Below are positions 2,259 through 38,655 of a stretch of 39,318 nucleotides of DNA, in pieces (the first letter of the stretch is position 1; each line of letters opens with the position of its first letter). Below the pieces are notes generated by a model that was not told where the DNA came from, did no database searches, and saw only the letters and a list, made by a program, of their open reading frames with translations. The stretch is from the NCBI GenBank assembly GCA_020072765.1, contig JAIQGD010000012.1, positions 1 to 39,318 on the forward strand. Reading direction: 5' to 3'. The stretch comes from Terriglobia bacterium (GTDB lineage Bacteria > Acidobacteriota > Terriglobia > Acidiferrales > UBA7541). A program made the position numbers and the translations under genes.

Positions 2259-3713
2259 ATGTCCCGTAGTGTCTTGTTTCTCCAATTTGGGACGGACGCG
2301 GATGCAGCCATCCGGTCTCGCGTAGCCTACGCCTTCCGCGTTTTTGCGGCGATTTATGGCTATTCGGTGGCCGAAAGCGCGGAAGCGGCGGAGCTTTGCT
2401 GTGTGTATGGCGATGGCGCCGCAACCCATCCGAACAAGGGTGTTCTCCGAATACCGGCAAGATACCGCCCGCGCCCCAAATCGGCAGGGATGCCAACGCT
2501 CGAGCGCTTTCGTTATGCGAATGAGGATCTGTATCTGGTTCACGGAGTCGACGAAGCTACGGGCAATCCCGACTGGTTGGGGGAGATCTTCGAATGGTTG
2601 TCGTCCAGCTTGGAGCTGCCCAATCCGGGCCGAGACGCGGTGGGCCGCATCCCTTATTCGAAAACGGTTTTCGCACGCCAGGGGCTCTCGCCTCTGAAAC
2701 CGCACGCGGCACTTTTGATGGCGTGGATGGAGAACGTTCTTGAAAACGGAGGCGGCGCCGAATCCTTGCCGAAGGCGGTTTCGCCGGTCGCCGGCATTGA
2801 GCACGCGGTGGTTTGCTCCCACGACATCGATTTCTATTTCACAAGCCGCGCCGCGGCCCTTCAACGGCTCGGCAAGAATCTTGGAATTTCGCTGACCCAC
2901 TATCGCAGCGCCTCGTATTTCACGGCGAACTCTCGGATGATTCTCGGCCTTTTGCGCGGGAAGCGGCCGGGGGACTATCTGCCGCAGATGTTGAGCGCGA
3001 TCGAAGATTGCGGGTTCCGGTCAACACTCTTTGCGGTGGCCGATGGGGAGCATCGCCGCGACCCGATCTACAGACTCGGCCAGGTGGCTCCGCAATTGAG
3101 GAGCGCGGCAAGAAGGGGATTCCCCGTCGGCGTGCACGGTTCCTACTCGAGTGTGATCGAAAAGGGATCGCTACGGCAGGAAGCGGCTGCTTTGGAGCAA
3201 GCCGTGGGGCGACGTCCACTCGGGAGTCGGCAGCACTGGCTCCGCTTCGACCGTCACGACAAACTTTTTCATGCAATTGAACGGGCGGGGCTCGCCTACG
3301 ATTCGTCGCTGGGTTTTGCCGAGACGTGTGGCTTCCGCAACGGAGCCAGCTTCGCCTTTCCCCCGTACGATTTCGCCAAGGAAGAGCCCTGCTCTTTCCT
3401 CGAAATACCGCTGGTGATCATGGATGGCAGCCTCGAAGCAATGTCGCGGAATCGGCGGCAGGGTTCTCAGGAATTGGCGGACGCCGTTCTGGGTGAGAGC
3501 CGGAAGTGGGGATGGGGCGGAATCGGCATTCTGTGGCACAACCCCATGGAGGCCATTCAAGTTCCCGACAAGGTGAACCACGTGTTCTGGGAATGCGCGA
3601 AAAAGCGAAAGAGATATGCGGAACAGTGGATGAGCGCGGAGGAGTTCGTGGCTGCCTCTCTGGGACGTTACCAGGCCGCCGGTCTTTTGAAGAGGATCCG
3701 ACTCGATGCTTAA
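2259..3713 (+). CDS. NodB-like polysaccharide deacetylase family protein (484 aa)
   Basis: This is a probable metal-dependent carbohydrate deacetylase of the NodB/CE4 superfamily, in the HDxD subgroup. An N-terminal region of about 180 residues of unknown role precedes the catalytic part. Visible motifs are SHDID (187-191, metal-binding Asp), FPVGVHGSYS (288-297, metal-ligand His293), SRQHWLRF (323-330), AYDSSLGFAE (346-355), EIPLVIMD (382-389) and LWHN (425-428). The last four are shared nearly word for word with the protein at 6881-8281, so the two are paralogues. There is no signal peptide or membrane segment, which points to a cytoplasmic sugar or glycan intermediate as substrate. GGAG at 2248-2251 precedes the ATG by seven bases. 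It overlaps the next gene by eight bases, so it is the first gene of a five-gene run. Confidence 0.82.
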   Translation: MSRSVLFLQFGTDADAAIRSRVAYAFRVFAAIYGYSVAESAEAAELCCVYGDGAATHPNKGVLRIPARYRPRPKSAGMPTLERFRYANEDLYLVHGVDEATGNPDWLGEIFEWLSSSLELPNPGRDAVGRIPYSKTVFARQGLSPLKPHAALLMAWMENVLENGGGAESLPKAVSPVAGIEHAVVCSHDIDFYFTSRAAALQRLGKNLGISLTHYRSASYFTANSRMILGLLRGKRPGDYLPQMLSAIEDCGFRSTLFAVADGEHRRDPIYRLGQVAPQLRSAARRGFPVGVHGSYSSVIEKGSLRQEAAALEQAVGRRPLGSRQHWLRFDRHDKLFHAIERAGLAYDSSLGFAETCGFRNGASFAFPPYDFAKEEPCSFLEIPLVIMDGSLEAMSRNRRQGSQELADAVLGESRKWGWGGIGILWHNPMEAIQVPDKVNHVFWECAKKRKRYAEQWMSAEEFVAASLGRYQAAGLLKRIRLDA

Positions 3714-4761: not shown

Positions 4762-4854
4762 GTGGCCCGCGACGTCATCTTGTTGAGCGACGAAGAAAAG
4801 ATTGCAGGCCGGCGGATCGCCGGCCCGCCCAGCGGAACGAGTTCGACTATTTCC

Positions 4855-6087
4855 ATGAGTGCGACTGCTCACACTTCACCGTACCCACTGTCAGTGCCAG
4901 TTGGCACGACAACGCTCGCTGCCTGCCGCGATATCGCGGAAGCGTCCGTCTTGATGACGGACGAAAGCTACAAGCACAGTCTTGGAATCATCCGGCAGCT
5001 CGGGCGGATGGGCGTGCGAGTCAGCGTCGTGGCCACCTCCCGGGACTCCCTGGTCTGCCGTTCCCGCTATCGCAGTGACATTGTTTGGTCGAAAGCAGCG
5101 ACCACAGAGGCCGTCCTTGAAGCGGCACTCGGGGCGGTAAAGGGAAAGCGTTATGACCTGCTGATGCCTGTTGGTTTTCCCATGACGATGGCGCTGGCAC
5201 AAGCTCGGGAGCAGTTCATTCCATACGTCAATCTGGAACTGGCGAGTACGGCCAAAATGGTGCGCGCCGCCAATAAAGCGGAGATGGCTGATCTGGCCAG
5301 GGAAGTCGGCGTGCCCGCCCCCCGGACCAGCGTCCTCTCCGGCATGGATGAACTGGAAAGCCTGGTCGCCGGGATGGCCTTTCCCATCGTCGTTAAACCA
5401 AAGATGGAATCACGCAAGGGAGTGGTCGCGTATGCGCGAACCATGGCCGAGTTGCGGACAATCTGCTCGGAACGTTTCGCAGGCCAGAGTTCCGGGATTT
5501 GGGAGCCGCAAATCCTACAGGAATTCATCCCCGGCTATGGCTGTGGATTTTTCGCCACCTACCAAAAGGGTGTCTGCAAGCGTGTGTTCATGCACCGGCG
5601 CGTGCGGGAGTACCCCGCGAACGGCGGAGCCAGTTGCTGCGCGGAAAGCGTTCACGAAGCGAAGCTCGAAGAATACGGCAGGCGCATGCTCGATGCTTTG
5701 GATTGGCACGGCGTGGCGATGGTGGAATTCCGGCGAGATTCCCGCGATGGCGATTATAAGTTGATCGAGGTGAATCCAAAGTTCTGGGGCTCGCTCGACC
5801 TCGCCCTGGCGGCGGGAGCGGATTTTCCAGGGGATCTTTGCCGGATGGCCCTGGGCGCCACGCTTCCCTTCACGGATGCTTACGATCGCAACTTGCGTTT
5901 TCAATGGCCGCTTTCCGGTCACGGAGATCTGTTTCATCTGTGGACTCGTCCTCAGTCGCTGTTGGATGTGGCATTCGATTTGCTGAACCCGAAAGTGAAA
6001 ACGAATGTGTGGTTGCGTGACTGCGGTCCAAACCTGGCGGAATTGCGCGGCTTGGTTGGCAGCTTCTTGCGTTCGAGGAAGAGCTAG
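4855..6087 (+). CDS. ATP-grasp carboxylate-amine ligase (about 410 aa)
   Basis: ATP-grasp enzymes activate a carboxylate as acyl phosphate and join it to an amine or thiol. Numbered from the ATG at 4855, the pre-ATP-grasp strand ASVLMTDES starts near residue 30. The lid-hinge lysine is in FPIVVKPKME near 176-185, and the metal-binding strand IEVNPKFWGS is near 304-313. The frame is open back to a GTG at 4762 that directly abuts the previous stop, adding 31 residues of low-complexity sequence. An ATG at 4954 would remove the first beta strand, so 4855 is preferred, although its ribosome binding site is weak. This architecture resembles ligases that add amino acids in glycan and peptidoglycan pathways; the substrates here are not evident. 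Confidence 0.8.
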   Translation: MSATAHTSPYPLSVPVGTTTLAACRDIAEASVLMTDESYKHSLGIIRQLGRMGVRVSVVATSRDSLVCRSRYRSDIVWSKAATTEAVLEAALGAVKGKRYDLLMPVGFPMTMALAQAREQFIPYVNLELASTAKMVRAANKAEMADLAREVGVPAPRTSVLSGMDELESLVAGMAFPIVVKPKMESRKGVVAYARTMAELRTICSERFAGQSSGIWEPQILQEFIPGYGCGFFATYQKGVCKRVFMHRRVREYPANGGASCCAESVHEAKLEEYGRRMLDALDWHGVAMVEFRRDSRDGDYKLIEVNPKFWGSLDLALAAGADFPGDLCRMALGATLPFTDAYDRNLRFQWPLSGHGDLFHLWTRPQSLLDVAFDLLNPKVKTNVWLRDCGPNLAELRGLVGSFLRSRKS

Positions 6088-6090
6088 GAC

Positions 6091-6810
6091 ATGCCATTTC
6101 GATGTTTGTTTCACCTGCACACGCGATGTTCGTTTGATTCGATTCTTTCGCCCGCCGCAATCCTGGCCCGGGCGCGGGAACTGCATGTGGATGTTCTCAT
6201 CGTCACGGATCACAACACGATTCAAGGCTCGCGGAATGTGCAATCCCTGACGGGAGGCGATCCGCCTCTGGTGGTGACAGCCGCGGAGTATCAGAGCGAC
6301 AAAGGCGACATCATTGGGCTCTTCTTGAAAGAGGAGATTCGCTCGCATGATTCGAGGGCAATCATTCAGCAAATACACGATCAAGGCGGCCTCGTCGTCT
6401 TGCCGCATCCCTACCGGGCGCATCAGCTCGACGAGGATCTGCTGGCCGGTGTGGACCTGATCGAGTCTCACAACAGCCGCTGCTCGGAAAGCGAGAACGC
6501 GCGCGCCGCCGAACTGGCGCAAAAAGTGAATCGTCCTGTTCTGGGCGGCGCCGATGCGCATTGTTCGATGGAACTGGGATCGGCGATGAACGAATTTGCC
6601 GCCGAGGCTCCGAAAGGCGAGACGGAACTGCGGCATTCCCTGCTTCATGCTCCCCGCCGCATTGTCACGCAGCGCGTGTCACCTCTATGCCCAGCGTACA
6701 GTCAGATGGTAAAAGCCGTGAAGACGAAGGATCCCATTCTGTTTTTGTCGCAGGCCAAGCGCATCACTCTTTTCCTGGCGCGAAACGCCGTGCGGGAAAA
6801 CGCCCTGTGA
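6091..6810 (+). CDS. PHP-domain metal-dependent phosphoesterase
   Basis: This compact PHP-domain protein of 239 residues has a full set of metal ligands: HLHTRCS at 8-14, TDHN at 39-42, AAEY with Glu66, LPHPY with His106, ESHNSR with Asn128, and GGADAH at 152-157. The family hydrolyses phosphoesters such as histidinol phosphate, nucleotide 3'-phosphates or small phosphosugars at a trinuclear metal site. The start follows the previous stop by three bases, with GAGGAAGAG just upstream, so translation is likely coupled. No signal peptide is seen. In this operon it may remove a phosphate from a sugar or ligand intermediate; that is inference from position only. Confidence 0.85.
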   Translation: MPFRCLFHLHTRCSFDSILSPAAILARARELHVDVLIVTDHNTIQGSRNVQSLTGGDPPLVVTAAEYQSDKGDIIGLFLKEEIRSHDSRAIIQQIHDQGGLVVLPHPYRAHQLDEDLLAGVDLIESHNSRCSESENARAAELAQKVNRPVLGGADAHCSMELGSAMNEFAAEAPKGETELRHSLLHAPRRIVTQRVSPLCPAYSQMVKAVKTKDPILFLSQAKRITLFLARNAVRENAL

Positions 6811-6880: not shown

Positions 6881-8281
6881 ATGAATGCGGCGTCACGCAT
6901 TCCCGAACTTACCGGCGAGGCGCGGCGGTACGCGGTGAAAGAACTGGCCAGGCGCGCCGGCGTGGCACGCGAGTTGTTTCTGCAATGGAGGGTTGATGTC
7001 TCGCCGGATCGTACAACCCTCTCACTGGGTTCCGAGGCGAACAAGGCGATTCATTTCCTGCATCTGCCGCAAAAGCCGCTCAAGCAGCACCCGGATGGCG
7101 GCTTTTCCGCGGCACGGGCTGCCTGGTTGCGGCCCCCTGACAATGGCTCGGCTGATCTGGCTCTGGTTCTCCCCTTTTGTCCGCAGGATTTCGATCCTCG
7201 CGCGCCGCTGTATCTGATGGCGCAGGATGGGAGCGTGGTTTGCCGTGCCGACCTTCTCGCTTCGTTTGTTCTAACGCTTTCCCGGATGGAAGAAACACGT
7301 TCGGCCGCTTGCGATGAACATGGCCGTTTTCTGGCATCGGGAAGCGTGGCCCTCCAGCAAGGGTTTCTTGAACGCCCGATTCTGGATGAACACGGTCTCG
7401 CCTTCGAGCAGGTTCTCTCTTCCATTGTGCCGTCGTGGCGTCTGCAACCCCGCGTTCTGCGTGTGAAGCTTACGCACGACGTTGACCAGGTCGGAATGCC
7501 TTTTCAGCTCAATGCCAGCCTGGGTCACGCGCTCAAACGTCGCAGCGTTGCCGGCACAGTTCGCGATATCGCGTCGTTATTCAGCGGAATCGAACCCATT
7601 GAACTCAGTTTGGTCCGCCGCTTAGGAGCACTCTCTAGCGACAGGGGGCTGCACTCCGCTTTTTATTGGAAGGCGAGCGAAGCAAGTCCCTGGGACACCG
7701 GCTACGACCCGACGAACGCGAAGGTGCAATCCGTGATCCGCTCCCTGGAACAAAGCGGTTTCGAAATGGGTGTGCATCCTGCCTACAGTACGTTTCGTGA
7801 CCGGGCGACTCTTGCGCGTGAAATCGAGCGATTGAGAACAAGTCTGTCCGTAACGTCACCGGGGGGGCGCCAGCATTATTTGCGCTGGGCCCCGGACACC
7901 TGGCTCGACTGGGAGGCCTGTGGATTGTCCTATGATTCGTCGGTGGGATTTGCCGAGCATTTCGGATTTCGTGCGGGAACGGCGATTCCGTACCGGCCCT
8001 GGAGCCTCGAGGAAAATCGCGAACTGAACCTGATCGAAGTTCCTCTCGTGCTCATGGATGTAACGCCGGTCCGGTACATGAAGTTAGGGCGCCGCGAAGG
8101 ACTGGAGCGCATCCGCGCGCTGATTCGGCGCACGGCCCAGGTGGGAGGAGTCTTCAGCCTGCTGTGGCACAACACATCCTTGCTGGACCCCGATTTCGAT
8201 GACTGGTATGAACCCATACTGGATATGCTGGCAGGGGCGCGGAACTTCGGGATTCCCGCAAGGCCGGCGATGCTCTGGTAG
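6881..8281 (+). CDS. NodB-like polysaccharide deacetylase family protein (466 aa)
   Basis: This is the second HDxD-type NodB-like protein of the run and a paralogue of the one at 2259-3713. Its catalytic part includes LTHDVD (197-202), FEMGVHPAYS (294-303, His299), GGRQHYLRW (328-336), LSYDSSVGFAE (349-359), EVPLVLMD (386-393) and LLWHN (427-431). The first 190 residues form a separate N-terminal domain of mixed alpha/beta character. There is no export signal. A GAGG-containing purine-rich stretch lies just before the ATG. It ends 20 bases from the stop of the convergent minus-strand deacetylase. The presence of two long paralogues suggests two different acetylated positions or substrates. 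Confidence 0.82.
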   Translation: MNAASRIPELTGEARRYAVKELARRAGVARELFLQWRVDVSPDRTTLSLGSEANKAIHFLHLPQKPLKQHPDGGFSAARAAWLRPPDNGSADLALVLPFCPQDFDPRAPLYLMAQDGSVVCRADLLASFVLTLSRMEETRSAACDEHGRFLASGSVALQQGFLERPILDEHGLAFEQVLSSIVPSWRLQPRVLRVKLTHDVDQVGMPFQLNASLGHALKRRSVAGTVRDIASLFSGIEPIELSLVRRLGALSSDRGLHSAFYWKASEASPWDTGYDPTNAKVQSVIRSLEQSGFEMGVHPAYSTFRDRATLAREIERLRTSLSVTSPGGRQHYLRWAPDTWLDWEACGLSYDSSVGFAEHFGFRAGTAIPYRPWSLEENRELNLIEVPLVLMDVTPVRYMKLGRREGLERIRALIRRTAQVGGVFSLLWHNTSLLDPDFDDWYEPILDMLAGARNFGIPARPAMLW

Positions 8282-8301: not shown

Positions 8302-9120
8302 CTACGGCGCGCACTTGCTGGCTGGCACGGAATACAGTTGCTTGCGCGCGGCGTCAAGCTGCTCGCGTTTCGATAGGTAGCCGTTCGTTGAGGAAATGAA
8401 ATCCTCAAAGGAAGCGCTGATTTCCGCGGTGATCTCCTCGCTCGCCCGCCGGTACGTTCCGGCCATATCCAGTTCTCCGAATGTCCAGGTCACTGGATGC
8501 AGGAGGGCATGGATGCGTTCTTCGGTTCCCAAAATGTCCAGCGGCGTCTCCTTGCGCCATTTGAAGCCGCTATCGGAGATGTAGCGGACGTTGTGCATCA
8601 AGTCGTGATTGTAGGCGTCAACGTAGTATTCATTGAGCTTTTGAAGAAACGCGCTGGATGCGGGGCGGTGCTGAGAGACGGACGCGATTTTGATGTGCAG
8701 GATATTCTCAAGGGCGGCAACATCGCTCAGAACGCCTTCTAGCGGATCGATCCCGTGCGCTTCGAAAAAGTCCGTCTCGTAGTGCAACCCGACCTCGAAT
8801 CCCATGGACACGATTTGCCGGAGCGCCTCCCAATGTGGCGGTGCGGCGGGGTTGTAATACAAGGAATGCAGAAGAACGAAATAGGAAGAGCGCACGCCCA
8901 GGGAGTGCTCCAACTGCGCCATCCGCAATGCGTATCGCGGGGCGACATCAATATCGTGGCGCAGAAGCAGGAATCGCCCTTGTGAGTGAGCGCCGTGCTT
9001 CATCTCCGAAACGGTGGGGAATTTGTAGCCGAGAGTGATGGCCTTTGCCAGCACCTCCGCGTAGTGTTCGAGTGAAAAATGGTCGCTCTGAATCGCCGGT
9101 GTGCTGTGGTTCGTTTTCAT
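8302..9120 (-). CDS. NodB-like polysaccharide deacetylase (272 aa)
   Basis: This third NodB-like protein in the window is a short version without the N-terminal extension. Motifs are LRHDID (53-58), FEVGLHYETD (108-117, His113), SQHRP (149-153) and a late LLHPVTW (206-212), the His-Pro-x-Trp signature seen near the C-terminus of related deacetylases. The frame is open to 9159, but the ATG at 9118-9120 has GAAGG five bases upstream and starts 11 bases after the stop of the lipoyl/beta-helix gene, so that start is preferred. It is the last gene of the E1 operon. It may prepare the amine that the beta-helix transferase acylates, or reverse that acylation. Confidence 0.8.
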   Translation of the reverse strand: MKTNHSTPAIQSDHFSLEHYAEVLAKAITLGYKFPTVSEMKHGAHSQGRFLLLRHDIDVAPRYALRMAQLEHSLGVRSSYFVLLHSLYYNPAAPPHWEALRQIVSMGFEVGLHYETDFFEAHGIDPLEGVLSDVAALENILHIKIASVSQHRPASSAFLQKLNEYYVDAYNHDLMHNVRYISDSGFKWRKETPLDILGTEERIHALLHPVTWTFGELDMAGTYRRASEEITAEISASFEDFISSTNGYLSKREQLDAARKQLYSVPASKCAP

Positions 9121-9131
9121 GGGAGCCTTCG

Positions 9132-10754
9132 TCAAATGAGTCCTGCGTGATAACGCCAAGGCCCGGGTTCCAGGCGGATGCCGCGCTTGCGCAGAAACTC
9201 CCGAGCCGCATCCGCGAAAAGTCCCGACGGGCCGTGAAGAGTCTGTTTCAGAACGTTCATCACGGTGATGCCTGCCGATAGCGATGCGGGGGCGGAATCG
9301 AAAGTCCAGAGTACGGTTTCATCCGCATTCTCCAACGGAGGCAGGTGAGTGGGAAGGGATTCAAGAAAGCCCAACTGATACATCTTCCCGTTGTGCACGG
9401 CCGTGAAATTCAGAAGAGGGCTGGTTTGGACCGGCTCCACCTGCACGTGTTTCAACTGGAGAAGCTCGTGAAATTGCCGCAGCATCGTCTCCGCGATCTG
9501 CAACTGTTTGTGGCGGGTGACAGGGCGGGCTGCATCGCGAACCACATGCGCGGGAACGCCAATCGCCAGCTTCCCCTTGGGAATGGCGGAAATTAGATAG
9601 GAATTCGACGCCAAGACCGAACCCTCCCCAACGCGCGAGCCGGCGTACAGCGTGGCATTCATGCCAACCTGGGCGAAGTCTTCGAGAACGATGGGGGCGA
9701 AGGTGTTTTCGTGGCCTTCCAGGATGGAGTGGCCGATGTTGTGCGTCACCAGAATGGTGCGCTGGGTCAGAAATACTTCCTTGCCAATCACCACGGGCCG
9801 GCAGATGTTGATGAAGAGGTCGTCGCCGAGATACACGTTGTCTCCGGCGACGAAAACGGCCCAAGGGTCGGCGTTCCCGCCGCCGCCGATTTGAATGCGG
9901 CTGCCCGCGAATGTATTCTGGCCGAATACGACGGTTCCACCCCGGATAACAAGCCCTTCGCGGAAGCTGGAAAGGGCGGAAATCGCTACGCGTTCGCGAA
10001 CGATAACGCTACTGTTCTCACCCACGCGCACGCCGTCCCCAAGCTGAATCTGCGGGGCAATCAGGATGGTTCGCTTGCCGATCACAACATCTTCGCCGAT
10101 CTCGGCGCCATGTTTTCGGTAGACTTTGCATTTGTCCGCCGGCGATAGTGCCGCGATGGCTTCCGGATCCTTGCGCAAGGAATCCAGAAAGGCCGGGTCA
10201 AGCATGCCACGGCTCGTCTCGGCCGCAAGGCCGGGGAGAGAAACCCCCTCGAGCGAAATGCCCTTCAGCGCAAAGTGCAATGGCCCGGCGGAAGCACTGC
10301 CAACCGGCCCGCGTGCAAGGTAGTCCTGAACGTGCTGTTCCCGAACCATGGCGATTCCCGCGAAGGTTTCGGGGGCAAGTCCGTTGCACTCGATGAGCGC
10401 CAGAGCTTTCTTGCTGAATCGCGTTCCGGGCAGCGAAACATCCGGCGAACGCGGAGCGTCGCTCGTTGCCACGGCTGCAAAGGCGAGCGGGGGCCTCGGC
10501 TCAACAGCGGGCGCTTCCGCTCCGATGTACGCCACGATCGTTCCCACAGCCAGGTCCTCACCCGCCGCGACTCTCAAGTGAACCGTGCCACTGCCTGGCG
10601 CAGCGAGTTCGACAAGCGCCTTGGAAGTCTCTATCTCAGCCAGATTCTGGCCCTCGCGGACCTCGTCGCCATCCTTCACCAGCCACGCCACGAGCTTGAC
10701 GGATTCGTCATTTACGTTGATGAGCGGAAGCTCAACGGCCGTAGCCTTAGACAT
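9132..10754 (-). CDS. lipoyl domain + E3-binding-like domain + left-handed beta-helix acyltransferase fusion
   Basis: The protein begins like a 2-oxoacid dehydrogenase E2. A lipoyl domain (about 3-78) has the modification lysine in IETSKALVEL, Lys45. After a Pro/Ala linker comes a peripheral-subunit-binding-like helix pair (about 108-146). Where an E2 catalytic domain with an HxxxD motif should follow, there is instead a hexapeptide-repeat left-handed beta-helix (about 216-405), with a probable catalytic histidine in LVTHNIGH (His338) and the typical ending AIGVPAHVV. Residues 415-540 form a C-terminal domain I do not recognise. The ATG overlaps the stop of the E1 gene by eight bases. The obvious reading is acyl transfer from lipoyl to a sugar or similar acceptor. 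The domain assignments are strong; the reaction is inference. Confidence 0.85.
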   Translation of the reverse strand: MSKATAVELPLINVNDESVKLVAWLVKDGDEVREGQNLAEIETSKALVELAAPGSGTVHLRVAAGEDLAVGTIVAYIGAEAPAVEPRPPLAFAAVATSDAPRSPDVSLPGTRFSKKALALIECNGLAPETFAGIAMVREQHVQDYLARGPVGSASAGPLHFALKGISLEGVSLPGLAAETSRGMLDPAFLDSLRKDPEAIAALSPADKCKVYRKHGAEIGEDVVIGKRTILIAPQIQLGDGVRVGENSSVIVRERVAISALSSFREGLVIRGGTVVFGQNTFAGSRIQIGGGGNADPWAVFVAGDNVYLGDDLFINICRPVVIGKEVFLTQRTILVTHNIGHSILEGHENTFAPIVLEDFAQVGMNATLYAGSRVGEGSVLASNSYLISAIPKGKLAIGVPAHVVRDAARPVTRHKQLQIAETMLRQFHELLQLKHVQVEPVQTSPLLNFTAVHNGKMYQLGFLESLPTHLPPLENADETVLWTFDSAPASLSAGITVMNVLKQTLHGPSGLFADAAREFLRKRGIRLEPGPWRYHAGLI

Positions 10755-12717
10755 GAGCGTGAAGGCCTTTCAGAGCAGACAGAATGGAGCCGGCGTTGGG
10801 AAGCAATTCATTCTCGAGGGGGCCGCAAGATGGAATGGGATGTTGCGGCGGAGCGAGCCTCTTCGAGACACGCAGGACGCCGGGCGCCAGCTCCATAATT
10901 TGTGCGATTAACTCGGAACCAAGTGCGGCGAACGCCTGGCCTTCTTCCACCACCAGCAAGCGATGGGTGCGCTCCAGGGATTCGATCACCGGCCAGGGAT
11001 TCAGTGGATACAGCTGGGTCGGGCAGATTACTTCCGCCACGAGTTCGAATTCGTCGAAGGCGCGGGCAATCGCCTGCTCCACATACGAAAGCACGCCACC
11101 ATAGCAGAAGACCGTGATTTGCGGCGGCTCCGCGGGACGCAGGCGGCAAGAAGGAAAAGCTTCGTCCGTCTTTTCCAGAGTGAATCCTTCGGGAACGGCC
11201 GCGCCAAGGCGCGATGCATATAGAACTTTGTTTTCAATCACTAGCGTCGGGCGATCACTGCTGGTGAGCAGTGTGTCGTACAGCGTTCCGGGATCGATCC
11301 GTGAGTTCAGGGCCAGGACGCGAGTGTGCGGCAATCCGAGAAAATGTTTCTCGAGAGACTGGCTATGCGTGGGCCCATAGCCTCGCCGTCCGCCCATGGG
11401 CGTGCGCACGATCAGCGGCACGCGCATTTGGTTGTTGTACATGTACCGGAATTTCGAGGAGTGGTTGATCAGTTGATCGGCTGCGAGAGTCAAAAAGTCG
11501 CCAAACATGATCTCGCACACGGGAAGACAATCTCCCATCGCCAAGCCGTTGCCTATGCCGACGATGGCGGCTTCGCTGATAGGCGTGTTCCGCACGCGGC
11601 CGGGGAATTCGTCACTCAGCCCCTTCGTTACCTTGAAGGCTCCCCCGTAGGGCGATTCAATATCTTCTCCGATTAGAACGATGCGCGAATTGTGCTGCAT
11701 GTTGCGCCGCAAGGAGTCCCGAATACTGGCGACAACCATCGTTCCGGCTTCGGCTTGCGCCGCCGGTGTCCACGACGGCTTGCCGACTTCTGGCAGATCT
11801 TCGTCGTCATCGGCTTGCCGCGCGTACGGAGCTTCTTCGGCTGCCACAACCGCCGCATCCACCTGCTCTCTTGCGCGGACCAGTACCGCAGGATCCGCGT
11901 CTGGATGTTCTTCAAAAAACAGTCGTAGCGGATCGCGAGCCCAGTGCAAAGTAATTTCTTCCCGGTCGCGGTCGTCATCTCCCTTTGAATGCGGCATCAA
12001 CCGGTATGTATCCACCTGCAAGAAACCTGGCTGCCGCTTCTGGCGCACGTGTGCAACGCTTGCGGCCGCAATTTCGAGCAAACGCTCCGGCTCCCAAGTG
12101 GAACCGTAAAAATAGGGGATATCGAAGGATTCCGCGCGGGCGCGGATGCTGCCGGCCAGAGTCTGGCTTTGCGGCGTGCTTTGCGCGTAGAAATTATTTT
12201 CCAGGACAAAGAGAAGAGGCAGTTCCCACTTGCTGGCACAATTGAGTGTCTCGTAGACGGCGCCTTCGCCAAGTGTGCCGTCGCCGAGGAAAACAACCGC
12301 AATGTTGTCGAGCCCCCGCATTTGCAGGGACATGGCCAGCCCCGCGCCGATCGGGGCAATGCCGCCTTGAACGCCATTGCTGAAAAAACCGGTCTTCACA
12401 TCGCAGAGATGCTGGCTTCCACCACGCCCACCGCAGACGCCGCTGGACTTGCCCATGATTTCCGCGACGAGACCCTTCACATTGCCTGTGCGGGCCAGAA
12501 AGTGGCCATGGCAACGATGGTTGCTGAACATGACGTCGCCGGAGCGAAGTCCGCGAGCGATGCCAATGCCCACCAACTCCTGCCCAACGCAGGTGTGCAC
12601 CGTGCCGAATAGTTTGCCGTCCGCGAACAGCCGAAGAAGACGTTCCTCGACTTCCCGGATCAGAGCGGCCAGCTCAAAGGCCTCGACGAGAGATGATCGA
12701 CTTGAGATCTTCTGCAT
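10747..12717 (-). CDS. 2-oxoacid dehydrogenase E1 alpha-beta fusion (thiamine diphosphate)
   Basis: This enzyme decarboxylates a 2-oxoacid on thiamine diphosphate and would load the acyl group on a lipoyl arm. Numbered from the ATG at 12717 (656 aa), residues 10-300 are E1 alpha: HRCHGHFLARTG near 67-78, GGRGGSQHL near 96-104, and the cofactor motif GDG (145-147) to NN (174-175). Residues 320-656 are E1 beta: IGEDIES, ISEAAIVGIGNGLA with the conserved Glu near 382, GPTHSQSLE, and the C-terminal PLNPWPVIESLERTHRLLVVEEG. The two chains are separate proteins in many complexes. The frame is open to a GTG at 12795, but the alpha homology begins just after 12717. No E3 gene is in the window. Acetoin or pyruvate dehydrogenase-like E1 is the closest match by eye. 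Confidence 0.88.
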   Translation of the reverse strand: MQKISSRSSLVEAFELAALIREVEERLLRLFADGKLFGTVHTCVGQELVGIGIARGLRSGDVMFSNHRCHGHFLARTGNVKGLVAEIMGKSSGVCGGRGGSQHLCDVKTGFFSNGVQGGIAPIGAGLAMSLQMRGLDNIAVVFLGDGTLGEGAVYETLNCASKWELPLLFVLENNFYAQSTPQSQTLAGSIRARAESFDIPYFYGSTWEPERLLEIAAASVAHVRQKRQPGFLQVDTYRLMPHSKGDDDRDREEITLHWARDPLRLFFEEHPDADPAVLVRAREQVDAAVVAAEEAPYARQADDDEDLPEVGKPSWTPAAQAEAGTMVVASIRDSLRRNMQHNSRIVLIGEDIESPYGGAFKVTKGLSDEFPGRVRNTPISEAAIVGIGNGLAMGDCLPVCEIMFGDFLTLAADQLINHSSKFRYMYNNQMRVPLIVRTPMGGRRGYGPTHSQSLEKHFLGLPHTRVLALNSRIDPGTLYDTLLTSSDRPTLVIENKVLYASRLGAAVPEGFTLEKTDEAFPSCRLRPAEPPQITVFCYGGVLSYVEQAIARAFDEFELVAEVICPTQLYPLNPWPVIESLERTHRLLVVEEGQAFAALGSELIAQIMELAPGVLRVSKRLAPPQHPIPSCGPLENELLPNAGSILSALKGLHAHV

Positions 12718-12845
12718 GGTTATGTGAGTACCGTCTCTCTTGAAAAGCAGCTGCTGGACCGCGAAGCCAACTCCCTGACGGTATTTGCCAGGCACGGCTT
12801 CGCAAGCTCATGGCTCTCGAATCCGAGCACGATAGGCCAGAGGCA

Positions 12846-22762: not shown

Positions 22763-23424
22763 TTCGTTTTCTCCTCTTAGAGAGTGTGTGCCAGGGTTAA
22801 CGGACAAATATCTGCCACTCGACGAATGTCCGGGTGAGGTGCATCCTCAACGCTCTATCGTGAATCGATCATGGACCGCGTTCTCCGTGCCCGGCTTCCG
22901 CACGCCGCCCCGGATAGCCGGACGAAGTGAAGGCTCGGACCCGCACAGACACAGCCAGCGTCGAGGACCGCTTCTATCGAATCAGAGTGAACTCGATCGC
23001 AACTCCCTCGGCTGGCGGGCACTATCTGCGAGTTGTATTAAGAGGTGGTGAAGCAGGCGAAAAACTAGGATGAAACTCGGCGCTTCCATCCATTTTAACT
23101 TCCCTTTGTGACGCGTGAATGAACCGCGCGTTGTCGTTTGTAGACATCATTCTCGGCGCGATGAGCAAGAAGCGCGTGAGGAGGGTGCGGCGCGAATTCC
23201 TTTTCGAGAAACATAGTCCTTTTGATTTCGTTGTGGGCACTGATCCTCGCAGCGCCCGCGCATGAGGACGTGATTGGCCTCAGGGCGCGGCCGCATTCCG
23301 CGCCGCCTTCACTCGCGGCACTATTATTGATAGTAATTCCATTCACGAGTCATCTCGACGTAACAGTGTAGCTGCAAGGATGACACCGGGCAGAGGACGT
23401 CTATTCCTTCAAGGGGTAATTCGA
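22763..23424. other. divergent intergenic region, PstS-like gene / TonB receptor
   Basis: About 660 bases separate the two divergent starts. Open frames here have neither ribosome binding sites nor family-like sequence. It presumably holds both promoters, but I see no pair of boxes good enough to name, and no RNA gene or repeat. The only firm sites are AGGAG before 22762 and AAGGGG before the GTG at 23425. Confidence 0.5.
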
Positions 23425-26400
23425 GTGAGACGGAGAATTGTGTTGTTTGTTGCCATGCTTGGTGTTTGCGCTGGATTGATCCTTCCGGCCAAAGCGCAAA
23501 ATAAGACCGCTGCGGCGCAGTCCGGCCAGACGACGGTCAGCGGGACCGTTCAGGATACTTCCGGCGCGGTCATTCTCGGCGCAACTGTGACTCTTACCGA
23601 CGGAGCGAGAACGAGCCACAGCGCCACCTCCGATGAAAAAGGTGAGTACCGCATCGAGGGCCTCGCCCCCGGCTCCTACCGTGTGAAAGCCACATTACCG
23701 GGGTTTGCCGATTTCGTTAAGGAAGGTCTTGCTCTCGGGGCGGGGGAACTCATGCGTTTTGATATCACGATGGTTCCCGCTGCAGTGGCCACGAAAGTCG
23801 AGGTGCAGGGCGAGACCACGACCCAGGTGGAAACGGAAAACGCGCAACTCGCCGGCACCATCACCAGCCAGGAAGTCACTACCTACGCCTTGAACGGCCG
23901 GAACTTTACGCAGCTCATCGCCCTGGCGCCCGGCGTGAGCAATCAAACCGGTCAGGATGAAGCGCACGTCGGCGTCAGCGGCAGCGTGAATTACAGCGTC
24001 AACGGAGGCCGCGTCGAATACAACAGCTACGATGTGGATGGCGGCGACATCCTGAATGCCAGCATCAACGGCAGCAGCAGCACTTTGATCGTCTATCCCA
24101 GCTTGGACGCCATCAGCGAGCTACAGGTTCTCACATCGAACTATGGCGCGATGTACGGCCGCAGCGCTTCGGGCACAACCCTGGCCAGCACCAAGTCAGG
24201 CGGCTCTTCGTTTCATGGCGACGGCTATTTGTTCCTGCGCAACAACCATTTGAATGCCCGTAACTATTTTGACCAGACCTCCGAAGCCCCCCTCTACCAA
24301 AAGTATGAGCCCGGAGCCACCATCGGCGGACCTCTCTTCATCCCCGGCGTCTACAATGAGAAGAAGGACAAGACCTTTTTCTTCTACTCGACCGAGTACA
24401 GGCACGACCGGGAGCCGGTGAATTTCCACCAAGCCGTTCCCAGCGCCGCCGAGCGCGATTGCCACAATGCCGTGAATCCCAATCCGGATTGCCTGGCAGC
24501 GCCGACGGGGACGCTGTTCGGAGATTTCAGCGATCTTTGTCCCGCGCCCAAGGCCGATGGCAGCCTCGCGTATTTTTCCCGAACCGCTCCCGGTTCCCCG
24601 GTGGCACCGTATTTCGCGGATTGCCCGGGACGTCCTGCGCAGACAGCCGGGGGAGCGCCGCCCAATTCCTTCACGCCTCTTCGGCAGGACAATCTGGTGC
24701 TGATCGACGCGCGGTCAGCGGCGATTCTGAACACCAACCTGATACCTATGCCTAATGCCGTCAGCGGTTGCAATCCGGGCTCCGTTGCTTGTTACTCGGC
24801 CTCCGTGTCTCCGCTCACCACGTGGTGGGAAAATCTCGCCCGCCTCGATCACAACATTTCTCCGACCCAGAAGGTCTACTTCCGTTACATCCACGACTCC
24901 TGGAGCACGGTCGTGCCCGCTCCGCAGTGGGGGTTCGTTCACAACAGTTTCCCCACGGTGCAAAACGAGTTCGTTGGCCCGGGCACAAGCGTGGTGGCTC
25001 ATTACACCGCCACGATCAAGAACCGCCTCGTGAATGACGTGGCCATCGCGTACACGACCGATCACATCCGCCTGACCAACGTTGCCGGGCCCGGCGTCAC
25101 GACCCTGGACCGATCGGCGGTTCCCGTAATCAACAACCCTCCCTGCCTGAACCCGAGCAGCCCCACCTGCGGCCTCGGCTACATCTTTAACAACGGTTTC
25201 GGCGACAAGATTCCCGGAATCATCATCAGTGGCACGAATGCCGCCTACGGCGGTCAAGGCTTCGCCGTGGATTCCAGTTACATGCCCTGGCATCACTCCA
25301 ACCCAACCTACAGCCCGCGCGACGACGCCACGATGGCGCTCGGGAATCACACCCTGGAGTTTGGAGTCCTTTTCATTCTGGCGCAACGCAACGAAGTCAA
25401 TCCGCCCGTCGGAGCGAATATCGGCGACCTCCAGGGGCTTGCGACGTTCACCAACGTCAACAACACTGACAGCACCGGAAACGTCTTCGCCGATTTCCTG
25501 ACGCCGCATATCTTCAGTTACCAGCAGGACAGCGCGCAAAGCGTCTTCCACAATAGCTACCGCATCGCCGAACCTTATTTTCAGGACAATTGGAAGGTCA
25601 CGCCTCACCTGACCCTGAACCTCGGTGTACGCGTCAGCTTTTTCGGGTTGTACAAGGAGAAATACAACCACTCCTATAACTGGGTGCCGTCTGAATTCAG
25701 CACCACCCTATCCTCCGAGGTTGTTATCAATAGCCGCTGGGGCTATTTGCAATATGCCGGCACGGGCACGACCGTGCCCCTCGATCTCAATAACGTCGAT
25801 CCCCACATCGTGAACGGCATCGTGCAATGCGGCGTCAGCAAATACGCGAATGGCAAACCCGTTCCGCCTGGGTGCATGACCAACCATCTCGTCAATCCTG
25901 CTCCGCGCCTGGGCTTCGCGTGGGATCCCTTCGGGAACGGGAAAACTTCCGTGCGCGCGGGTTACGGCGTCTTCTTCGAGCACGGCACCGGGAACGAAGC
26001 CAATACCGGCTCGCTCGAGGGCAGTGCGGGAGCGATCTCGTCCAGTGGTGTTCTGGACATGACGCAATACTACCCGCTCGGCTGGGGCTGCATCGGAAAC
26101 GCTGGTTCCAGCTGCCCGGCCTTTGGCGGGACGTTCCCGATCAATGTCACTTCGATTCCGACCCGCGCCGTGTGGCCCTACGCCCAGCAGTGGAGTTTGA
26201 GCGTTCAGCGCCAGCTTCCTCGGAATCTTCTGGGAACTATTGCGTACGTCGGCAGCAAAGGCACACACCTGACTGCGGAGCTTCAGGTGAATCAGTTGCT
26301 TCCGGTGAGCGCGGCGGAGAATCCTTTTCTGCCGGGCCAGCCGCTCACCACCGATATCTGCTCTGGATATGGTGCGGGAGTGTTTACCGTAAATGGCAAT

Positions 26401-27453
26401 AGCATCGGCGCCAGCCAGCCCGGTTATATCAATCTCCTCGCGGCCTGCGCGGGACTCGCCAGCCAGATTCCCATGCCCAATGCGCTTCGCCAGCCCGGTT
26501 ACGTCATCGCTCCGGGCATGGGCCAGATATTCTCGCTACAGAACATCGCCGATTCCCACTATAACGCGCTGCAACTTTCCTTGCGCCGCACGAAGGGGCC
26601 CTTGGTCCTCGGCATTTCGTACACCTACAGCCACTCGATTGATGATTCGTCCGATCGCACCAGCGCCACTTTCATCAACGCCTACAACTTGGCGCAGAAC
26701 AAGGCCAGTTCCGACTTCGACCAGCGCCATTTGTTGAACATCAGCTACGTCTGGACGCCGCCGCTGATGCGCATCGGACATTGGGGCAAGGACTTTTTCA
26801 ACTTCCATAGTGACAACTGGCAACCGGGCAGCGACAATGGTCCCTCGAACCTCGTCAAAGCGATCTTTTCCAACTGGGAAGTCGCCGGCATCACCGTCTT
26901 TTCCACCGGCACACCGTTCAGTGTGATCAACGGAGGAAGTTCCTCCGGCATCTCGTCGCTGGACAACGCCGGCGTCGCTGCCGTTCTCGGCCCCGGTTCC
27001 TACCCGGACCTGGCGCCCAAGGGCACTCCCTCGGCATGCACCGTCATCTCATGTGCCAGCACAGGCTCCGCCATCGGTCCCATCCTTGGGAATGTCGGCC
27101 GATTTGTGGCGCCGCAGGGGCTGACATATGGCAACGCAGGCCGCAACTTCCTGAACAATCCGAGCCGCCTCAATTTTGACCTGTCCATCACGAGGAAGAT
27201 GGTCGTTGGGGAGGGGCGTTCCCTGGAGTTCCGCCTGGAAACCTTCAATACGTTCAACCATACGCAGTTCCGCATCTACGATCCGTCGAATCCCGGGAAC
27301 GCCGGAAACAACGTCATTACTTGCTACAACGGCGTGAGCGCTGCGGCGGGCGTGCCCAACTATCAGGCGTGTGAGGGCGGAAGCTCCTTCCTCCGGCCGA
27401 TTGATGCGCACCGTCCACGCACTCTCCAATTGGGCGTGAAGTTCTTCTTCTAG
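23425..27453 (+). CDS. Oar-like TonB-dependent outer-membrane receptor (about 1342 aa)
   Basis: This outer-membrane beta-barrel probably imports large ligands using TonB energy, as in SusC- or Oar-type receptors. Numbered from the GTG at 23425: signal peptide 1-24 (AKA/Q), a carboxypeptidase-regulatory-like domain 31-118 (SGTVQDTSGAVILGATVTL, then GEYRIEGLAPGSYRV), a plug about 125-250 (TYALNGRNFTQLIALAPGV, then YGAMYGRSASGTTLASTKSG), and a barrel to the C-terminal LQLGVKFFF, ending in the aromatic residue needed for barrel insertion. AAGGGG nine bases before the GTG supports this start; an ATG at 23380 would only lengthen the signal. Receptors of this length are a hallmark of Acidobacteriota. 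The ligand is unknown; oligosaccharide or peptide is usual. Confidence 0.9.
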   Translation: MRRRIVLFVAMLGVCAGLILPAKAQNKTAAAQSGQTTVSGTVQDTSGAVILGATVTLTDGARTSHSATSDEKGEYRIEGLAPGSYRVKATLPGFADFVKEGLALGAGELMRFDITMVPAAVATKVEVQGETTTQVETENAQLAGTITSQEVTTYALNGRNFTQLIALAPGVSNQTGQDEAHVGVSGSVNYSVNGGRVEYNSYDVDGGDILNASINGSSSTLIVYPSLDAISELQVLTSNYGAMYGRSASGTTLASTKSGGSSFHGDGYLFLRNNHLNARNYFDQTSEAPLYQKYEPGATIGGPLFIPGVYNEKKDKTFFFYSTEYRHDREPVNFHQAVPSAAERDCHNAVNPNPDCLAAPTGTLFGDFSDLCPAPKADGSLAYFSRTAPGSPVAPYFADCPGRPAQTAGGAPPNSFTPLRQDNLVLIDARSAAILNTNLIPMPNAVSGCNPGSVACYSASVSPLTTWWENLARLDHNISPTQKVYFRYIHDSWSTVVPAPQWGFVHNSFPTVQNEFVGPGTSVVAHYTATIKNRLVNDVAIAYTTDHIRLTNVAGPGVTTLDRSAVPVINNPPCLNPSSPTCGLGYIFNNGFGDKIPGIIISGTNAAYGGQGFAVDSSYMPWHHSNPTYSPRDDATMALGNHTLEFGVLFILAQRNEVNPPVGANIGDLQGLATFTNVNNTDSTGNVFADFLTPHIFSYQQDSAQSVFHNSYRIAEPYFQDNWKVTPHLTLNLGVRVSFFGLYKEKYNHSYNWVPSEFSTTLSSEVVINSRWGYLQYAGTGTTVPLDLNNVDPHIVNGIVQCGVSKYANGKPVPPGCMTNHLVNPAPRLGFAWDPFGNGKTSVRAGYGVFFEHGTGNEANTGSLEGSAGAISSSGVLDMTQYYPLGWGCIGNAGSSCPAFGGTFPINVTSIPTRAVWPYAQQWSLSVQRQLPRNLLGTIAYVGSKGTHLTAELQVNQLLPVSAAENPFLPGQPLTTDICSGYGAGVFTVNGNSIGASQPGYINLLAACAGLASQIPMPNALRQPGYVIAPGMGQIFSLQNIADSHYNALQLSLRRTKGPLVLGISYTYSHSIDDSSDRTSATFINAYNLAQNKASSDFDQRHLLNISYVWTPPLMRIGHWGKDFFNFHSDNWQPGSDNGPSNLVKAIFSNWEVAGITVFSTGTPFSVINGGSSSGISSLDNAGVAAVLGPGSYPDLAPKGTPSACTVISCASTGSAIGPILGNVGRFVAPQGLTYGNAGRNFLNNPSRLNFDLSITRKMVVGEGRSLEFRLETFNTFNHTQFRIYDPSNPGNAGNNVITCYNGVSAAAGVPNYQACEGGSSFLRPIDAHRPRTLQLGVKFFF

Positions 27454-27729: not shown

Positions 27730-29709
27730 TTACAGCGCGGATTCTTGGGGAGTCGTGAAGGGGCGGGGATTCAACGAGAGCACTCTCACCACATGACGGC
27801 CACCAACCCCAGCGGCCTGCGCCTTTGGCGCGAGGAGCGTGCTGTAGCCCAGTCCCATGGTCTCCAGCAGTTCCAGGACGTGCGTCCGGTCGTTGTTCCC
27901 CGCGCTGTGCAATAGCCGGGCGACGTCGGCCATCAGCGAAGCGTGATTGACTGCCTGCGGCTCGATCACGGACAGTTTCTCCATGGATGTTGGCGAGAGT
28001 GTTTCCGCCTGCGCCACCAGCTCCTCGGTGAGTTTTTCCCCGGGCCGCAAGCCGGTGATCGCGATGTGGATGTCCTTCTCTGGCTCCAGGCCCGAGAGCA
28101 GAATCATTTCGCGCGCCAGTTCCAGAATATTCCGGGGATTCCCCATATCGAGAACGAAAGTCTCTCCGTGACCGGCCAAGGTGCCGGCGCACAGGATCAA
28201 CTGCACCGCTTCCGGGATGGTCATGAAATAGCGAACGACGTCGGGATGCGTGACCGTTACCGGCCCGCCCGCCGCGATCTGCTTCTGGAACAGCGGCACG
28301 ACGCTCCCGCGGCTTCCGAGAACATTTCCGAATCGCACGCAGGCAACTCTCATCCCGCCCGCGTTCCTCTGCGCCTGCACGAGCATCTCGCCGATTCGTT
28401 TGGTGGCGCCCATGACGTTTGCGGGGTTCACGGCCTTATCCGTCGAGATGAAGACAAGTCGCTCGACTCGGAATTCGGCGCTCACATCCAGAACGTTCTT
28501 TGTTCCACCGACGTTGTTCAGCACCGCCTCGCAGGGTTGGATCTCCATCAGAGGCACATGCTTGTGCGCGGCCGCATGGAAGATGGCCTGCGGGCGGAAT
28601 TCGGAAAATATGCCGCGCAAGCGGCTGGTTTCCCGAACATCCGCGATGTGGGTCTCGATCGAGACCGGGAAACCGCGTCGGCGCAGCTCCTGGTCCAGTT
28701 CGTAAACCGCGTTCTCGTCCTTGTCCAGAATGGCGATCTTGGAAGGATGGAGCCGCCCGAGCTGGCGAACCAGTTCGCTGCCGATCGAGCCCCCGGCCCC
28801 GGTCACCAGGATGCGTTTCCCTCGATAGGTGGGGCCCGCGACCTCTTCGAATTCACTCACCTCGATGCTTTCGCGTCCCAATACCTCTTCCACGGCCGTG
28901 TCGCGCAACTCGCTGATCTGAACCTGGCCGCTTAGAATTTCCCGCAAGCTGGGAATGATCTTGGCTGGAACGCGCGCGCGACGGCATTTGGCGAGCGTCC
29001 TTGCCAGGGTACCTCGGCTCGCTGTGGCCATGCTGATGATGACTTCATCAATCTGCCACTCCCGGACCAGCCGTTCAAGGTCATCTCCGTTTCCGACGAC
29101 GGGCGTGTCGCTGATCACCGATCCGACCTTCAACGGATCATCGTCAATGAAACCGGCCACGTCATAGGAGGGACTGTTCTCCATTTCCTTGCGCAGCATC
29201 AGGCCGGCGCGCCCCGCGCCATAAAGAAATGCCCGCTTGGTCGGATTCTCCAAGGACGACATCTTTCGTTCGTGGGCATACTGCATGCGCCGCAGCGCGC
29301 GGATACCCAGCGATGAGATGAGCGAAAGAAGCCCCTCGAAAACGAGGATGACGACGGGGATGCGGACCCATTCGGCAAAGGCGGCGTGCCGCGGATAGCA
29401 GAGGGCTATCGCCAGGAACATGACGCTGACCGAGCCGATGGACCGGGTGATTTTGACCGCATCCGAGATCGAGACGAACCGCCACACCAGCCGGTAGACG
29501 CCCAGGACATGGTGCGCGGCAATCCTGGCCAAGACGACTACAGGCAACCACACGAGGAGTTGATGCAACTCCACCGCATTCAGCCAGCTTTCAGAGCGAA
29601 GCAGGCAGGCGGCCGCCAAGGAAACCGCGAATACGGATGCGTCGAGGATGACTTGGTTCGTGCGCGTGTACAGGTACGCGGGGGCCATGGCCTTGCGGTC
29701 AAAGAACAC
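27730..29709 (-). CDS. FlaA1/WbpM/CapD-type nucleotide-sugar 4,6-dehydratase (659 aa)
   Basis: This membrane-bound dehydratase converts UDP-GlcNAc to a UDP-4-keto-6-deoxy sugar, the usual entry to bacillosamine- or QuiNAc-type sugars. It has four N-terminal membrane helices (about 20-37, 49-68, 90-106, 118-135), a first Rossmann region with FLYGAGRAG (161-169), and a C-terminal short-chain dehydrogenase domain with TGAGGSIG (303-310), ISTDKAVNP (421-429) and MGATKR (433-438). The last two carry the modified Thr/Asp/Lys catalytic set of this family. The start is GTG at 29709 with AGAGG six bases upstream. It is the last gene of the minus-strand glycan cluster, 33 bases after the sugar transferase. 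Confidence 0.9.
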   Translation of the reverse strand: MFFDRKAMAPAYLYTRTNQVILDASVFAVSLAAACLLRSESWLNAVELHQLLVWLPVVVLARIAAHHVLGVYRLVWRFVSISDAVKITRSIGSVSVMFLAIALCYPRHAAFAEWVRIPVVILVFEGLLSLISSLGIRALRRMQYAHERKMSSLENPTKRAFLYGAGRAGLMLRKEMENSPSYDVAGFIDDDPLKVGSVISDTPVVGNGDDLERLVREWQIDEVIISMATASRGTLARTLAKCRRARVPAKIIPSLREILSGQVQISELRDTAVEEVLGRESIEVSEFEEVAGPTYRGKRILVTGAGGSIGSELVRQLGRLHPSKIAILDKDENAVYELDQELRRRGFPVSIETHIADVRETSRLRGIFSEFRPQAIFHAAAHKHVPLMEIQPCEAVLNNVGGTKNVLDVSAEFRVERLVFISTDKAVNPANVMGATKRIGEMLVQAQRNAGGMRVACVRFGNVLGSRGSVVPLFQKQIAAGGPVTVTHPDVVRYFMTIPEAVQLILCAGTLAGHGETFVLDMGNPRNILELAREMILLSGLEPEKDIHIAITGLRPGEKLTEELVAQAETLSPTSMEKLSVIEPQAVNHASLMADVARLLHSAGNNDRTHVLELLETMGLGYSTLLAPKAQAAGVGGRHVVRVLSLNPRPFTTPQESAL

Positions 29710-29742
29710 GGAACACCTCTGATTGCATTCCCGGCGTTCGTT

Positions 29743-30414: not shown

Positions 30415-30480
30415 GAGTATCGGTCGGCGGACCGCTCATTCATCAGAACTGTGTCGCAGAGCGAATCTTTCAGGCCAACA

Positions 30481-31650: not shown

Positions 31651-31703
31651 CTGAGTGCTCCGGAATAGCGTGGATTCGAATGTTTCCTGCGCCAGACCTT
31701 GGA

Positions 31704-34930: not shown

Positions 34931-35123
34931 ACGATTTCACCTGTTTGACGATACAGATTTGCCGGCGTCCCGGCTTTGCAGTCCCAATTGAAGTTCGCCA
35001 TACTCTTTGTCTGGCCGGGATGTCCCATGACCTCTGTCGCTTCCCGGTGCCCGCAGGAAACTGGCGTCGTGTACGCGTCTCCGACTCGCGCTCCTGCGGG
35101 CCGAAGTCCTTCGACCGGCGACT

Positions 35124-36275: not shown

Positions 36276-36436
36276 GTGGGTGGTGATCTCCCGTGTTGCG
36301 TGATGCTTCCCCATCGTTCGCCGCGAATGACCCGGCCAACGGAGGCGATTGTCCGGCGTAATACCCTTTACGTCCTGCTGCATAATGGTGAACACACCGC
36401 CAGCGTGTTTCTTGATCGCGTGCGCGAATGGATAAA

Positions 36437-37648: not shown

Positions 37649-37663
37649 CGAAGCACACCTTCA

Positions 37664-38608: not shown

Positions 38609-38655
38609 TCGCGCATAAGGCTGGGGTGGGCGACGGCTTCGGATTGGCTGCTCCT

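Follow-up and report, generated by a model that had tools for sequence, protein, structure and literature searches.

Contig JAIQGD010000012.1 of a Terriglobia bacterium was analysed over a stretch of 39,318 nucleotides (hereafter, the window). On its reverse strand lie three adjoining genes, which encode a fused E1 alpha-beta protein dependent on thiamine diphosphate (ThDP), a protein that joins a lipoyl domain to a left-handed beta-helix (LbH) acyltransferase, and a CE4-like deacetylase (Table 1). The window genome is G000, other G numbers denote the genomes of relatives, and L numbers denote loci. A first-pass annotation made from the letters alone had described the first two genes as a fused E1 overlapping its neighbor by eight bases, and this holds. 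The overlap is ATGTCTAA, and Pfam places E1_dh (1.3e-44), Transket_pyr (5.1e-26) and Transketolase_C (4.9e-10) in a single E1 chain that starts, as placed before, at the ATG at 12717 inside an open reading frame of 10747-12795(-). The deacetylase gene was absent from that annotation and starts 11 bases past the lipoyl-LbH stop codon. As the recognisable flanking genes on both sides have the opposite orientation, the trio looks like a separate operon. An assembly artefact or chance fusion was ruled out by full-length homologs in other genera and by the flat GC content of the window (0.565-0.605).

Table 1 Coordinates of the three genes and of the domains and residues discussed
Feature	Position	Strand	Remarks
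Fused ThDP-dependent E1 alpha-beta	10747..12717	(-)	656 amino acids from ATG 12717; RenH / NapB-QncN-like clade
Lys242 codon of E1	11983..11985	(-)	invariant in the clade; in 1/11 canonical E1s; two residues past the outer-loop His
Lipoyl / PSBD-like / LbH acyltransferase fusion protein	9132..10754	(-)	540 amino acids
Lipoyl domain, residues 1-80	10515..10754	(-)	Pfam and structure comparison
Lys45 codon, predicted lipoylation site, ETSKA hairpin	10620..10622	(-)	invariant in homologs
Peripheral subunit-binding domain (PSBD)-like helix pair, ~residues 108-150	10305..10433	(-)	candidate docking site for E1 or E3
LbH acyltransferase domain, residues 216-400	9555..10109	(-)	Hexapep, WcaF family, fold matches
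His338 codon, candidate catalytic base	9741..9743	(-)	conservation
C-terminal domain, residues 410-540, RKRGIRxE...WRY	9135..9527	(-)	partly common to lipoyl-less LbH relatives
CE4-like (HDxD) deacetylase, third gene of the operon	8302..9120	(-)	

Domains of the lipoyl-LbH fusion protein

Pfam detects Biotin_lipoyl (7.7e-12, residues 17-77) and Hexapep (4.6e-11) in the fusion protein. The lipoyl domain with Lys45 in ETSKA had been predicted from the sequence, and the residue is indeed invariant in 4/4 lipoyl-LbH proteins, with a lipoyl lysine at the same hairpin in every E2-like partner compared. The protein thus carries a lipoyl domain with its lipoyl lysine, as a canonical 2-oxoacid dehydrogenase E2 does. 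Structure comparison with VIA-align matched the domain to E2 lipoyl domains at Z 13-14.5, including the PDHK2-bound E2 lipoyl domain (Z 13.5, 1.3 A, 76 aligned). The fold alone matches biotin domains too, but a biotin carrier domain was rejected on the lipoyl-type hairpin ETSKA and on the best solved relative by sequence, which is an E2 lipoyl domain.

An LbH acyltransferase stands where an E2 would have its catalytic domain, as the first-pass annotation had proposed. A domain search of 9132-10754 found no hidden classical E2 domain, that is, no match to PF00198 (the 2-oxoacid_dh catalytic domain, HxxxDG) even at E <= 1. The protein has hexapeptide repeats, an LbH fold and a conserved candidate catalytic histidine, and the pair T337-H338 is invariant in 12/12 LbH homologs, both lipoyl-bearing and lipoyl-less. 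The best fold matches of the LbH domain included OatWY, LpxD and GlmU (Z ~15-16), but at a high root-mean-square deviation of 11-12 A over 156-167 residues, and its match to the WcaF family (NF007797, E 2.6e-17) scores 63 bits against a cut-off of 192 and is thus under the curated threshold. One of the LpxD structures matched was solved together with its acyl carrier protein (ACP). LpxD takes acyl groups from ACP, and it therefore provides a precedent for an LbH enzyme supplied by a carrier protein.

The E3-binding-like helix pair of the first-pass annotation is present but weakly marked. Helices at residues 115-123 and 139-147 are present in the AlphaFold2 (AF2) model, but the profile matches are weak (Pfam E3_binding at E 0.03, in one homolog only). 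With a profile of related E2-like proteins the segment outscores nearly all decoys, again as a weak match, and no recognisable PSBD match was obtained in the G175 lipoyl-LbH protein. The AF2 model is mediocre (mean pLDDT 61.5, pTM 0.37), and only its local folds were used; its order is the lipoyl domain with Lys45 at the hairpin, the helix pair (115-147), the LbH (~216-400), a long helix and a small C-terminal domain.

E1 lineage and the acyl donor

RenH of the renieramycin cluster and the window E1 share 48% identity along 646 amino acids; with the E1s encoded by its own genome, the window E1 shares 25-38%. In a tree of 22 E1s, of which 11 were canonical (five from its own genome), it fell with 100/100 support in a clade with the E1s of G046, G239, G175, G339, G049 and G431, RenH and three actinobacterial E1s, and outside the E1s of pyruvate dehydrogenase (PDH), branched-chain 2-oxoacid dehydrogenase (BCDH) and acetoin systems (100/100). 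A weaker E1 match in G983 turned out to be a canonical PDH. The clade residues N63, Q99, Q114, T145, Y444 and T447 near the active site occur in 0/11 canonical E1s (E1 residue numbers refer to the stretch 10750-12708; three are added for the count from the ATG). The outer-loop histidine near K242 corresponds, judging by motif, to H271alpha of the Geobacillus stearothermophilus E1p, which contacts the cofactor (PMC2663715).

Within the clade, a Streptomyces cluster encodes an ACP, E1alpha, E1beta and a lipoyl E2 and adjoins a non-ribosomal peptide synthetase (NRPS). These are the same protein kinds as SclQ1-4 and QncM/N/L, which have been proposed or shown to convert a ketose phosphate to a glycolyl unit (PMC6335953; also PMC7570522). 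RenH and the Streptomyces cluster served as stand-ins for NapB/QncN in the clade assignment. In work by Peng et al. from 2012, NapB/NapD and QncN/QncL reportedly go through a glycolyl-lipoyl intermediate.

The first-pass annotation had proposed a dedicated acylation route fed by a 2-oxoacid. The part of this claim that stands is the coupling of an E1 gene to a lipoyl arm joined to an LbH in a sugar locus. Given that the characterised relatives of the clade draw their C2 unit from a ketose phosphate, the 2-oxoacid feed of the window E1 is probably wrong, or not the default. We consider it unlikely that the E1 decarboxylates pyruvate or a branched 2-oxoacid and that the LbH moves an acetyl or branched acyl group off the lipoyl arm. 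This would agree with the E1-type Pfam domains and with the pepteridine E1/E2-like pair, proposed to transfer a 2-oxoacid-derived acyl group without free coenzyme A (CoA; PMC5384830), but it sits poorly with the fully supported position outside the canonical 2-oxoacid E1s and with active-site substitutions common with RenH and NRPS-linked E1s. An acetyl group is unlikely in particular, since re-acetylation after the neighboring deacetylase would be pointless.

The trees of the two proteins disagree. The LbH tree groups the window with G046/G239 (100/99), whereas the E1 data reject this grouping (p-AU 1.8e-98) and pair the window E1 with that of G175. In G046/G239 the lipoyl-LbH/deacetylase pair is thus combined with a different E1 lineage of the clade. 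The E1 gene was exchanged, but for another clade member, and this speaks for a joint function of this type of E1 and the lipoyl-LbH protein.

For the remaining E1-clade genes that were examined in the phylum, the neighbor encodes a lipoyl protein that has an E2-type domain, with two such lipoyl/E2-like partners in G175 and one each in G431, G049, G339 and G942. The modules of G339 and G942 lie in NRPS loci, and in G339 a lipoyl synthase gene directly follows (L072). The G049 module belongs to an exopolysaccharide locus that also includes a gene for a phosphopantetheinyl transferase, and glycosyltransferase and asparagine synthase-like genes are near that of G431. The lipoyl domains of the window and G175 are 42% identical. 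The N-terminal lipoyl half is therefore common to them and the catalytic half varies, the window LbH being one variant.

The same adjacency bears on a further alternative, in which the E1 adds a C2 branch to a keto sugar by forming a C-C bond, as AviB1/AviB2 do, and the lipoyl-LbH protein, a sugar acyltransferase in its own right, recruits the E1. PDH-E1-like pairs build C2 sugar branches in avilamycin and paulomycin (PMC4425429) and the window holds sugar dehydratase genes, but a lipoyl arm is not described as needed there, whereas here the lipoyl lysine is conserved and a lipoyl protein is encoded next to the clade genes that were examined in the phylum. We regard this alternative as very improbable.

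Several of these loci have features of their own. In G175 (L065, 5717-9864), two tandem lipoyl/E2-like proteins follow the E1 fusion; both have a Cys-rich tail with CxxC pairs, and one has the catalytic motif FDARIVSG (His to Ala). RenH-clade E1s with a lipoyl/E2-like protein are found in NRPS loci of the same phylum at L072 8363-12607 and L096 7453-10786. Directly behind the E1/lipoyl pair of an exopolysaccharide locus (L073, 12484-13275) lies a gene for a 263-amino-acid protein in which a possible carrier-like N-terminus precedes a phosphopantetheinyl transferase domain (ACPS 3.6e-16). In G431 (L066, 5436-7552), a possible deacetylase-like protein (TIFDDPD motif, no Pfam match) and an acyltransferase-like protein are encoded behind the E1/lipoyl E2-like pair, a gene order that also resembles deacetylation followed by acylation.

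Recurrence of the cassette and of the deacetylase

We searched 396 genomes across the phylum and then 12, 193, 399 and 41 genomes in chosen groups (the sets overlap), and found lipoyl-LbH proteins only in G000, G046, G239 and G175, the last three encoding full-length homologs of the fusion. The first-pass annotation had suggested looking for the same fusion beside an E1 in other genomes, and the cassette does recur gene for gene in G046 and G239, which belong to another family. The order there is E1alpha, E1beta, lipoyl-LbH and deacetylase, with the E1 split into separate genes, and the proteins are ~45% (E1), 41-43% (lipoyl-LbH) and 51-52% (deacetylase, at the same position) identical to those of the window. 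The E1beta gene of the G046 cassette (L021, 7900-8912) is split over two reading frames, by a genuine break or a sequencing error, and is open in G239. In G175, the fusion gene adjoins a PIG-L deacetylase gene, and an E1 fusion 62% identical to the window E1 is encoded ~26 kb away on the same contig.

Lipoyl-LbH was absent from all 20 genus mates examined (0/20), so vertical ancestry within the genus is unsupported and the locus is sporadic and probably mobile. No relative was found in the viral and phage collections, and a scan of a contig collection returned only short, uninformative lipoyl-domain matches.

The deacetylase has HDID, EVGLH and QHR motifs in common with VimE-like proteins and thus shows the CE4-type traits, i.e., HDxD, GLH and HxR-type motifs and a CE4 fold; its top three Foldseek matches all belong to the CE4 family, with modest TM scores of ~0.4. 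Neither the window protein nor its G046/G239 homologs matched a polysaccharide deacetylase family in Pfam or NCBIfam. A de-N-acetylase gene of the CE4 type or PIG-L neighbors 11 of the 12 LbH genes, whether these are lipoyl-bearing or not (~eight independent loci once the near-copies in G046/G239 and three Streptomyces are allowed for), the exception being that of Streptomyces goshikiensis. For the lipoyl-less LbH genes of G750, G431, G333 and G311 the neighbor is an HDxD deacetylase (NodB-like or VimE-like); for three copies on Streptomyces plasmids it is PIG-L. These lipoyl-less relatives keep the histidine and parts of the C-terminal domain.

The recurrent de-N-acetylase neighbor points to an amine acceptor freed by deacetylation, and the simplest reading of the LbH loci would be deacetylation and then re-acylation of one and the same amine. 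A sequence of sugar deacetylation and acylation has been proposed for VimE/VimA (PMC7468200). On this reading, an exchangeable donor module made up of the lipoyl domain and E1 seems to have been added to an older deacetylase-acyltransferase pair, an order of events that we infer.

Elsewhere in the window are amino-sugar genes for a UDP-GlcNAc 4,6-dehydratase-like protein, a PseC-like aminotransferase, a UDP-GlcNAc 2-epimerase, a NeuD-like LbH and two VimE-like deacetylases. Acceptors would accordingly seem to be at hand, none of them linked by evidence to the operon. The VimE-like CE4 deacetylases at 2259-3713(+) and 6881-8281(+) match NCBIfam VimE at 1.6e-13 and 9.2e-39, both under the cut-off; together with an ATP-grasp protein (4762-6087) and a PHP phosphoesterase (6091-6810) encoded between them, they constitute a second amine-modifying gene set adjoining the operon. 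A diamino-sugar/glycan set at 27730-39312(-) includes a PseB/PglF-like dehydratase, PglC-like transferase, the PseC-like aminotransferase, GT4, asparagine synthase, the UDP-GlcNAc 2-epimerase and the NeuD-like LbH. At 23380-27453(+) lies a gene for an outer-membrane beta-barrel protein of 1357 amino acids with a carboxypeptidase-regulatory-like N-terminus (OMP_b-brl_4, 8e-145).

Proposed acyl exchange and related systems

Overall, we lean towards an operon whose three genes serve to exchange an acyl group on an amino sugar of a glycan, with an E1-loaded lipoyl arm that would supply the LbH for transfer without CoA. The CE4-like deacetylase would strip the N-acetyl group from a sugar that is probably nucleotide- or lipid-linked. 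The E1, as its clade and the architecture suggest, would cleave its donor on ThDP and reductively acylate the lipoyl group predicted at Lys45; by analogy with the clade, the acyl group would most likely be glycolyl from a ketose phosphate, with acetyl or a longer acyl group derived from a 2-oxoacid as the less likely choice. The arm would then swing to the LbH site of the same protein, where His338 may aid attack of the free amine on the lipoyl thioester to yield an N-acylated, possibly N-glycolyl, sugar without CoA. The dihydrolipoyl arm would be re-oxidised by the ordinary dihydrolipoyl dehydrogenase of the cell; the genome encodes one good such enzyme (Lpd) and, for lipoylation, LipB. Tentatively, and with less confidence than in the operon as a whole, we suggest that the system may exchange N-acetyl for N-glycolyl groups on bacterial surface glycans without CoA, by means of the deacetylase, a transketolase-like E1 that takes C2 units from a ketose phosphate, the lipoyl arm and the fused LbH.

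Several points weigh against this proposal. The characterised clade relatives pass the acyl group to an ACP via an E2-type domain; both the ACP and this domain are missing from the window operon. The ketose-phosphate donor would follow from kinship through the RenH and Streptomyces stand-ins. The closest E1, that of G175, adjoins two E2-like proteins instead of the distant lipoyl-LbH gene. Finally, the LbH may still favor acyl-CoA, given that its relatives without a lipoyl domain presumably draw on a different donor.

This last point leads to an indirect route, in which the lipoyl domain merely docks the E1, a housekeeping E2 hands the acyl group on to CoA, and ordinary acyl-CoA serves as donor for the LbH. 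Acyl-CoA is the usual donor of LbH acyltransferases, lipoyl-less relatives with a similar C-terminal domain exist, and the genome encodes three ordinary E2s elsewhere. However, if a separate E2 step were involved, it would be difficult to see why the arm is covalently fused to the LbH and why a dedicated E1 gene overlaps that of the fusion. Moreover, Lys45 does not vary among the four lipoyl-LbH proteins, and the tie to the E1 clade persisted through the E1 gene exchange. We consider the indirect route improbable, and somewhat more so than a 2-oxoacid donor.

For the direct transfer that we propose, an arm-based CoA bypass appears to have precedent both in the same E1 clade (glycolyl to ACP) and in another E1/E2-like pair (pepteridine). 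NapB/NapD and QncN/QncL(QncM), the two-component transketolases of naphthyridinomycin and quinocarcin, resemble the window system in using a lipoyl arm as acyl carrier, a non-CoA acceptor and a ThDP-dependent E1 that is probably of the same clade, as compared via RenH and the Streptomyces ACP-E1a-E1b-lipoyl E2 cluster; homologs are SclQ1-4, DinS/DinU and, in renieramycin, RenH/RenI. These systems differ in having an E2-type catalytic domain and in passing glycolyl to ACP for an NRPS, whereas in the window an LbH replaces the E2-type domain in a glycan locus with a deacetylase; no ACP or NRPS neighbors were found among the window genes scanned. The pepteridine system of Photorhabdus (E1-like plus an E2-T-C fusion) is proposed to place an E1-derived acyl group on a free amine without acyl-CoA release, but it works through a carrier protein together with a condensation domain of the NRPS type, and its acceptor is a pterin.

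WcaF/OatWY-type and LpxD-type enzymes have the LbH fold and the conserved histidine in common with the fusion, and the LpxD type is likewise fed by a carrier protein, but we know of none that itself carries a lipoyl domain and has an E1 as partner. VimE/VimA, which acts on a linking sugar in Porphyromonas, also combines CE4-type sugar de-N-acetylation with new N-acylation, but VimA is a GNAT/FemAB-like aminoacyl transferase and there is no E1 or lipoyl arm. Like the canonical E2s of PDH and BCDH, the window protein has a lipoyl domain, an adjacent E1 and possibly a PSBD-like linker domain, but it lacks the 2-oxoacid_dh catalytic domain and its E1 lies outside the canonical clade.

The first-pass annotation knew of no described system with a lipoyl-LbH fusion. 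In agreement with this, the literature searched contained no description of a lipoyl domain fused to an LbH acyltransferase, and none is known to us. Arm-based, CoA-free acyl delivery is known for NRPS systems, and its lipoyl-LbH form in glycan loci appears undescribed.

If the proposal is true, lipoyl thioesters would be direct acyl donors for sugars, a role that to our knowledge has not so far been assigned to them. One device, a RenH/Nap-type E1 plus a lipoyl arm, would then serve antibiotic assembly lines and surface glycans interchangeably, with just the catalytic domain behind it swapped. It would offer a simple three-protein system for reconstitution, and N-glycolyl or similar amino sugars would be predicted in these bacteria.

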